DNA of 64,000 nt from Pseudorhodobacter antarcticus (GTDB taxonomy: Bacteria; Pseudomonadota; Alphaproteobacteria; Rhodobacterales; Rhodobacteraceae): contig CAMAXX010000004.1 of NCBI GenBank assembly GCA_945862435.1, forward strand, positions 1 through 64,000, in the 5' to 3' direction. The position numbers were made by a program, and so were the translations under genes. Position 1 is the stretch's first letter. Every line of letters begins with the position of its first letter. The notes beneath the pieces were generated by a model. The model was given only the letters and a program-made list of their open reading frames with translations, had not been told where the DNA came from and ran no database searches. Below are positions 16,379-18,350 of the stretch, piece after piece.

Positions 16379-17578
16379 GTGATGACCCAGACCAAGGCTG
16401 GGGCCGATGGCGGTTTGCCAAAAGCCCAAAACCCTGCGGCCGAAGCCAAGGCCGCGATGACTGAATTTCTGAACGCTTTCAAAGGCTTTCAGACCGATGT
16501 GACGCAATCTTTGCAACAACAGGAAGAGCGACTAACCATGCTTGATCGTAAAACAATGACCTATGGCCGCCCCGCCCTTAGCGCGGCGGTAGAAGCTGAT
16601 GTGCCGCACAAAAAGGCCTTTGGTGCCTATTTGCGCAGCGGCGATGATGATGGCCTGCGCGGATTGGTGCTGGAAGGCAAGGCTATGTCGACCGCCGTGG
16701 CGGCTGATGGTGGCTATTTGGTCGATCCGCAAACGGCAGATACCATCCGCTCGATGCTGGTTTCAACATCATCGCTGCGCTCTATTGCTAATGTGGTGCA
16801 GGTCGAAGCCACGTCTTTTGACGTGCTGGTGGATCGCAGCGAAGTGGGCAGCGGTTGGGCAACCGAAGTAGCTGCCACAACCGAGACTGCAACGCCATTG
16901 ATCGAGCGTATTGCGATCAAGCTGCACGAATTGTCAGCTATGCCAAAGGCTTCGCAGCGCCTCTTGGACGATTCCGCCTTTGACGTAGAGGGTTGGCTGG
17001 CAGGCAAAATCGCCACCCGCTTTATCCGCGCCGAGGCGGCTGCCTTTGTCAGCGGCGATGGCATTGACAAGCCGAAGGGCTTTTTGACCGCGCCAAAAGT
17101 GGCCAATGGCACCTGGACGTGGGGCAGTCTTGGCTATGTGCCCACGGGCGCTGCTGCCGATTTCGCCCCAACCAATTCGGTCGATTGTATCATCAATCTG
17201 GTTTACGCATTGGGCGCTGAGTACCGCGCTAATGCGTCCTTTGTGATGAATAGCAAAACCGCAGGCGCAGTGCGCAAGATGAAAGATGCGGACGGGCGTT
17301 TCATGTGGTCGGACGGATTGGCCGCTAGCGAGCCTGCCCGCCTGATGGGCTATCGTGTGCTGGTGTGCGAAGATATGCCTGATATCGCGGCAAATGCCTT
17401 TGCGATTGCCTTTGGCGATTTCAATGCAGGCTACACCATTGCAGAGCGCCCCGATTTGCGTATTTTGCGCGACCCGTTCAGCGCCAAGCCCAATGTTTTG
17501 TTCTATGCCAGCAAGCGTGTGGGCGGCGATGTGACTGACTTTGCCGCGATCAAGCTGCTGAAAATCGCTGTCTCGTAA
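16379..17578 (+). CDS. GTA g5, HK97-family major capsid protein
   Basis: GGYLVDPQTADTIRSMLVSTSSLRSIANVVQVEATSFDV... ASFVMNSKTAGAVRKMKDADGRFMW... DFNAGYTIAERPDLRILRDPF. Confidence 0.95.
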   Translation: MMTQTKAGADGGLPKAQNPAAEAKAAMTEFLNAFKGFQTDVTQSLQQQEERLTMLDRKTMTYGRPALSAAVEADVPHKKAFGAYLRSGDDDGLRGLVLEGKAMSTAVAADGGYLVDPQTADTIRSMLVSTSSLRSIANVVQVEATSFDVLVDRSEVGSGWATEVAATTETATPLIERIAIKLHELSAMPKASQRLLDDSAFDVEGWLAGKIATRFIRAEAAAFVSGDGIDKPKGFLTAPKVANGTWTWGSLGYVPTGAAADFAPTNSVDCIINLVYALGAEYRANASFVMNSKTAGAVRKMKDADGRFMWSDGLAASEPARLMGYRVLVCEDMPDIAANAFAIAFGDFNAGYTIAERPDLRILRDPFSAKPNVLFYASKRVGGDVTDFAAIKLLKIAVS

Positions 17579-17593
17579 GACACAGTGATCCGC

Positions 17594-17700
17594 GCCCCCG
17601 CTGCAAGTTAGCGGGGGCGATTTGGGCGCGCGGCATAAGCCGTTTGGCTGCTCTCCCCCCAATCTCCCCCCCCGCGCAGACGGCTTTCGCGCGCCCAAAT
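17594..17700 (+). promoter_or_regulatory. Structured RNA element between capsid gene and g6
   Basis: Perfect 9-bp hairpin GCCCCCGCT-gcaagtt-AGCGGGGGC (17594-17618), then inverted repeat ATTTGGGCGCGCG (17620-17632)/CGCGCGCCCAAAT (17688-17700) extended by AAGCCG/CGGCTT. Confidence 0.7.
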
Positions 17701-17714
17701 GGGGAGGCTTTGCG

Positions 17715-18350
17715 ATGAAAGGCTACAGGATGCTTTTGACCGAACTGATTCAAACCGCCAGTGCCGATTTGCCCGTGGCGGGCCTGAAAGATCATCTGCG
17801 CCTTGGTACGGCTTTTGGTGTGGATGGTTTGCAAGACGGGTTGATCGAGGCGCATTTGCGCGCGGCCATTGCGACGATTGAGGCGCGCATTGGCAAGGCG
17901 CTGCTGACGCGCGATTTCAAGCTGAGCTTGCCCGATTGGCGCAGTTTGTCGGCGCAGACCTTGCCGCTGGCTCCAGTTGTGGCGGTGACCAGACTGTCTG
18001 TGTTTGATGTTATGGGCGTGGAAATGGTGCTGGACGCCGCGCGCTTTGCCCTGCAAGCCGACACGCATCGGCCCAAGATTGTGGCAGTGGGTATGCTATT
18101 TCCGAACGTGCCTAGCGACGGGCGGATCGAGATTATGTTTTCTGCGGGCTATGGCCCAGCTTGGGCCAATGTGCCCGCCGATCTGCGCCAAGCGGTGATG
18201 CTGCTGGCCGCGCAATACTATGAGACGCGCCACGATGCAGCGGCATCAGCGCAGGGCTTTGGCCTGCCGATGGCGGTCCAATCGCTGATCGAACGGTATC
18301 GCAACATCCGCGTTCTGGGCGGTGGCGCAGCAAAAGGCGGCGCGATATGA
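17715..18350 (+). CDS. GTA g6, head-tail connector protein
   Basis: MKGYRMLLTELIQTASADLPVAGLKDHLRLGTAFGVDGLQDGLIEAHLRAAIATIEARIGKALLTRDF; start refined from 17622 (SD ggggagg 17701-17707). Confidence 0.85.
   Translation: MKGYRMLLTELIQTASADLPVAGLKDHLRLGTAFGVDGLQDGLIEAHLRAAIATIEARIGKALLTRDFKLSLPDWRSLSAQTLPLAPVVAVTRLSVFDVMGVEMVLDAARFALQADTHRPKIVAVGMLFPNVPSDGRIEIMFSAGYGPAWANVPADLRQAVMLLAAQYYETRHDAAASAQGFGLPMAVQSLIERYRNIRVLGGGAAKGGAI

Follow-up and report, generated by a model that had tools for sequence, protein, structure and literature searches.

In Rhodobacteraceae clusters that encode the gene transfer agent (GTA), a domesticated virus, it is near certain that a conserved structured element lies between the major capsid gene (g5) and the head-tail adaptor gene (g6), where it would serve as a family-wide cis-acting RNA element within the long GTA mRNA. 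We consider it about evenly probable that this element and the hairpin preceding it (Hairpin 1) form an intercistronic boundary for mRNA stability or processing, and the element would thereby probably set the amount of capsid relative to the tail parts. The window, i.e., the whole 64,000-nucleotide stretch of DNA that was analyzed, lies in such a cluster, in which Pfam recognizes the terminase, portal, protease, capsid, adaptor, tail tube, and GTA TIM-barrel proteins. Its capsid-g6 junction is made up of the following features.

16379..17578, + strand: GTA major capsid gene, g5 (Pfam Phage_capsid PF05065, E = 3.7e-88; list of open reading frames)
17593..17619, + strand: Hairpin 1, a 10-bp GC-rich stem right past the capsid stop (inverted repeat, arms 17593-17602 / 17610-17619)
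17620..17699, + strand: whole element as matched by covariance model R1 (28 bits, E = 0.005 in 64 kb, the best match in the window)
17620..17633, + strand: 5' arm of the outer stem, with 13 perfect pairs and one G.U (fold, inverted repeat), equivalent to covarying helix 1 of the family
17637..17648, + strand: 5' arm of the inner stem (fold, inverted repeat)
17639..17653, + strand: GCCGTTTGGCTGCTC, the portion still carrying conserved loop sequence (GCCGTCTGGCTGCTC in the sister species; sister-species and covariance model alignments)
17649..17673, + strand: C-rich loop that corresponds, in diverged form, to the conserved loop (fold, sister-species alignment)
17674..17686, + strand: 3' arm of the inner stem (fold, inverted repeat)
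17687..17700, + strand: 3' arm of the outer stem, followed by no U tract (sequence, inverted repeat; base makeup past the arm across the family)
17701..17707, + strand: Shine-Dalgarno sequence (SD) of g6, GGGGAGG (sequence)
17715..18350, + strand: g6, head-tail adaptor (Pfam Phage_connect_1)

An earlier note on this DNA, made from the sequence alone, had described a perfect 9-bp hairpin after the capsid stop; the hairpin is there, with a stem of 10 bp rather than 9. The perfect 13-bp inverted repeat that it reported was recovered exactly (arms 17620-17632 and 17688-17700, 13 nt, 100% complementary), as was the end of the outer arm at 17700, with the g6 SD beginning directly after it at 17701. 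Beyond the outer stem, the second hairpin has three unpaired bases on the 5' side and then an inner stem of ~12 pairs (arms 17637-17646 and 17677-17686, 90% complementary) that closes a 25-nt C-rich loop. In the fold check that the note had proposed, the minimum-free-energy structure of the region includes all three helices. Folded by itself, the second hairpin gives a z score of -4.1, with an equally good fold in 0 of 200 shuffles, and the whole region with both hairpins has a z score of -2.5. Most g6 homologs align from residue 6 of the window protein, i.e., they start at the codon matching 17730; the g6 start in the window lineage thus appears to lie five codons upstream of theirs (17715 versus 17730), and the new GGGGAGG SD of this lineage abuts the second stem.

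To assess conservation, capsid-g6 gaps were taken from loci found by capsid homology alone. Their lengths fall mainly into two classes, ~45 to 90 nt (first hairpin only) and ~120 to 200 nt (with a second long stem in addition). In the long-gap loci, the loop of the second stem is near-invariant (consensus YCUAGCUGCUCCCUCCGUCCGAGC) and the homologous element is ~76 nt long; the majority of Rhodobacteraceae GTA clusters have such an element, and the consensus loop is present in R. capsulatus, Thioclava, Actibacterium, Tropicimonas, Gemmobacter, Defluviimonas, and others. An alignment of 56 capsid-anchored loci, filtered to permit up to 5 mismatches in about 24 loop positions, has two-sided compensatory changes in 16 of 20 pairs, and 95.8% of its cells are paired. 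Its double-change cells number 144, versus 43 +/- 6 in shuffled alignments (0 of 500 shuffles reach 144), and the covariation signal collapses when the partners are slid by one to three columns. The stems are also present in 100 further loci chosen by the loop motif alone (276 versus 79 double-change cells), a set in which the invariance of the loop is a consequence of selection. A possible inner GCUC/GAGC pairing within the loop hardly varies and so speaks neither for nor against itself. The covariation across Rhodobacterales capsid-g6 regions that the earlier note had suggested looking for is therefore strong, and related GTA clusters do keep the structure. The frequency of G.U pairs in the stems, together with the compensatory changes, argues that the element acts as RNA and not as a DNA cruciform. 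Taken in its entirety, the R. capsulatus region has no better fold than its shuffled versions (z = 0.24), so that conservation, rather than stability, is the evidence for the element there.

The place and spread of the element were examined partly with R1, a covariance model built without the window. R1 matches the window copy at 28 bits (E = 0.005), versus 19 bits for the opposite strand of the same palindrome. Among 157 loci with the loop motif (IMG/VR contigs and model loci), 155 carry it on the strand of the capsid gene, 55 to 112 nt beyond the end of that gene, the two exceptions being one contig without a capsid match and one rearranged locus. In the 40 genomes common to the capsid and model lists, a comparison of coordinates by hand placed the element 34 to 71 nt past the end of the capsid match in all 40. 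R1 recovered a match, almost always exactly one, in 207 of 397 family genomes and in 109 of 198 genomes of an order sample (one copy each); these counts are lower bounds, since the model in whole-genome mode overlooks weak copies, including that of the window. Of the 83 genomes in which a GTA capsid is strongly matched, 52 also have an R1 match, as against none of the 18 family genomes that lack such a capsid match. The conserved element spans over 200 genera of Rhodobacteraceae, and a sample of 385 class-wide genomes yielded two matches, both from this family, with none outside it; likewise, no distant relative in other alphaproteobacteria was matched in the model search. Many of the IMG/VR loci (L129-L278), contigs of ~10 to 14 kb filed as viral, are Rhodobacteraceae GTA clusters. 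At one locus (L160, positions 325-1744), the capsid and upstream genes lie on the strand opposite to the element and g6, an arrangement that is an inversion or an assembly join between the capsid and the element.

On the capsid tree, element-free loci are nested inside element-bearing groups, and 11 changes are required to account for where it is missing, of which well-supported branches force at least 7. The element is therefore probably ancestral and repeatedly lost, and the several losses suggest that it is modulatory and not essential. Hairpin 1 is a general post-capsid hairpin that is retained in lineages without the second element; a stem of at least 8 bp lies within 50 nt of the capsid stop in 82 of 98 loci, compared with about 20% in shuffles. 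Other families also have structures at this place. In one locus (L333, genome G176), whose capsid is 56% identical, a stem CCCGCGCGCG/CGCGCGCGGG with the C-rich loop CCUGUCCCCUCCCUCCC lies just 3' of the capsid gene and is possibly a distant relative of the element, with no match from R1. Strong hairpins or palindromic repeats past the capsid in five loci from other alphaproteobacterial families (L320, L322, L328, L330, and L331) are apparently unrelated to it.

The window copy belongs with the R1-defined family by its place between g5 and g6 on the same strand and by its outer and inner stems (the match given above and the sister-species alignment), and it lacks the complete invariant loop CUAGCUGCUCCCUCCGUCCGAGC. 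It is atypical in that C runs stand in place of the conserved 3' loop half, which in the family reads CUCCGUCCGAGC, and, as seen in the alignment with the sister species, the inner 3' arm is altered and now pairs with a shifted partner. Near relatives (L010/L039 and L011) share this derived loop, with only the 5' half kept. Judged from the aligned sequences, the C-rich loop of the window is a lineage-specific derivative of the conserved loop. The complementarity of the C runs to the SD that the earlier note had stressed is therefore a local feature of a few species.

We favor stabilization or processing of mRNA segments as the role of the junction because the U tract is absent, pairing with the SD is unsupported (see below), the puf operon provides a precedent, and the two flanking genes differ in product: in the GTA particle, g5 forms the full shell (T=3 or oblate), whereas the g6 adaptor is only a dodecamer (PMC7296036). 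In this view, the earlier note's idea of capsid stoichiometry would still be the best explanation. Hairpin 1 and the element would then stably divide the capsid part of the messenger from its adaptor/tail part, most likely acting post-transcriptionally. The downstream part would first be cut or degraded, the two hairpins would then block 3'-to-5' decay of the upstream capsid segment, and capsid mRNA would consequently be longer-lived than adaptor and tail mRNA. GTA segments have been suggested to differ in mRNA stability (PMC3423380). Several points count against such a boundary: the element is missing from several lineages, the window copy has kept just half of the conserved loop, and the R. 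capsulatus region lacks an exceptional fold (the z score given above). Moreover, a stabilizing hairpin needs no invariant loop, which the model thus leaves unexplained; this suggests a sequence-specific partner, and the conserved loop is probably where a trans-acting factor that tunes the boundary docks (an RNA-binding protein, a nuclease, or a small RNA).

The precedent comes from the puf operon of R. capsulatus, the textbook example of its kind, where an intercistronic stem-loop is an mRNA decay terminator according to the title of Chen 1988 as cited in PMC9690577; Klug 1987, cited with it in PMC9690577 and PMC6238624, also concerns puf intercistronic stem-loops. The puf operon resembles the GTA junction in having strong hairpins between high-copy and lower-copy products of one operon in the same bacterial family, and the GTA junction does have stable nonterminator hairpins between genes of unequal product demand. 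The operon is a different one, however, and the GTA element additionally keeps, across hundreds of genera, a near-invariant loop of ~24 nt and a stem in two parts.

The junction could instead control translation of g6, with the loop pairing with the SD, or the SD-adjacent stem hindering ribosome loading, so that the adaptor is kept low. The window lends itself to this explanation in that the C runs of its loop can pair with GGGGAG and its stem terminates right at the SD, and family-wide, the CUCCG of the loop can pair with the CGGAG of many g6 SDs. We nevertheless regard it as unlikely. The two C-rich motifs that the earlier note had presented as complementary to the SD exist, but their complementarity does not go beyond C-richness (-16.7 kcal/mol versus -15.7 +/- 2.2 for shuffled loops; p = 0.29). 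Over 198 distinct loci, a loop pairs no more strongly with its own SD than with swapped ones (-14.80 versus -14.73 kcal/mol, sd 0.08, p = 0.2), and the covariation of loop and SD expected of an SD-sequestering switch was not seen. SDs of the CGGAG type are about equally common at loci with the element (129/198) and without it (14/27). As a target of the loop, g6 has no excess over shuffled loops (+0.10 +/- 0.18), with g8, g12, and g14 scoring better, and the distance from stem to SD varies across loci, being mostly 0 to about 50 nt. In the window, the SD is at the base of a ~24-bp stem and the loop is at its other end without a linker, so that the stem would presumably have to open before the two could pair within one molecule. 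Sequestration of the g6 SD by the loop, as the note had proposed, is thus unsupported in the window, and the swap and shuffled-loop tests led us to reject loop-SD pairing as a general mechanism.

We likewise doubt that the element partially terminates or pauses transcription, thereby reducing that of the tail genes, until a GTA activator comparable to the Caulobacter antiterminator GafZ overrides it. GafZ does read through a GC-rich repeat terminator inside a GTA cluster (PMC11150451), and stable GC stems could pause polymerase; however, the Caulobacter terminator follows the first gene and not the capsid gene (PMC11150451), and such a role would leave the invariant loop unexplained. There is also no U tract at either window hairpin or after the element family-wide, in keeping with the opinion of the earlier note that this is not a simple terminator, and an intrinsic (Rho-independent) terminator was rejected on that ground. 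The terGTA of Caulobacter crescentus shares with the element GC-rich inverted repeats in a GTA cluster but differs in its place after the first gene, its three ~150-bp direct repeats, and its status as a tested terminator (PMC11150451); R1, for its part, has no match outside the family in the class-wide sample. A boxA-like antitermination signal was also rejected, as the UGCUC of the loop is not strictly conserved (AGCAGCUC and GCAUCUC variants occur), unlike the CUCC after it.

It is comparably improbable that the element is freed from the GTA mRNA and becomes a small RNA with a C-rich loop that binds SDs in trans, on the pattern of the anti-SD CcsR/cuckoo small RNAs known from Rhodobacter and rhizobia. 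The invariant loop carries CUCCCUCCG, CcsR RNAs arise from a 3' untranslated region by processing (PMC8625941), and the complementarity of the loop to several downstream GTA SDs is slightly above that of shuffled loops. That excess, however, is what a CUCC block gives against AGGAG, and no recurrent specific target was found. The two systems are alike in having a C-rich hairpin loop, 3' of an open reading frame, that is able to pair with SDs (PMC8625941). CcsR/cuckoo RNAs carry CCUCCUCCC in tandem hairpin loops, whereas that motif is itself absent from the GTA consensus, whose loop is CUCCCUCCGUCCGAG, in one motif hairpin rather than a tandem and inside an operon.

A DNA site (for protein binding, packaging, or recombination) or a neutral leftover of an ancestral phage, to which the palindromic GC runs of the outer arms might point, is very improbable and is already largely refuted by covariation: the frequent G.U pairs and compensatory changes need RNA, the identity of the loop over hundreds of genera speaks against neutrality, and 50,697 phage records gave chance-level matches only.

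Several other identities were considered and rejected. The element is not a repeat or mobile element, being single copy in the window's genome and present in one copy per genome elsewhere. A phage or plasmid source was dismissed on chance-level matches only (for phages, in the records just cited), and a phage origin by way of the motif-bearing IMG/VR contigs fails because these are GTA clusters filed as viral. When the loop or its complement was sought elsewhere in the genomes, the exact 16-mer turned up in 3 of 121, always at the GTA place. The earlier note knew of no described element of this kind in GTA clusters, and it is apparently undescribed: no Rfam family (release 15) is matched in the window above its gathering threshold, with chance-level hits only for the window and R. 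capsulatus copies, and we found no published description among open-license papers, to which our search was limited (an earlier account elsewhere is possible).

Phage head genes can likewise be followed by structured RNA motifs (Mu-gpT-DE type), conserved RNAs that lie just past a head-protein gene; the GTA element differs from them in having no Rfam match at all. It is conceivable, though we hold this with clearly less than even confidence, that the element represents a new class of RNA regulator tied to GTAs, in which a dedicated trans-acting factor would read the loop and couple capsid output to tail-gene expression, or the excised element would act in trans on SDs. Possible candidates for this factor would be a small RNA or a protein that the GTA itself makes, for example its capsid or adaptor. 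That the loop is near-invariant across hundreds of genera implies the existence of a partner, which apparently has not yet been described. Although the cluster of RcGTA, the model gene transfer agent, is described as yielding one primary transcript, its gene segments are not equally abundant. In the species that serves as the model, the element sits where the capsid and adaptor genes meet; with a single copy and natural pairs of presence and absence across the family, it makes post-transcriptional control of GTA assembly directly testable.
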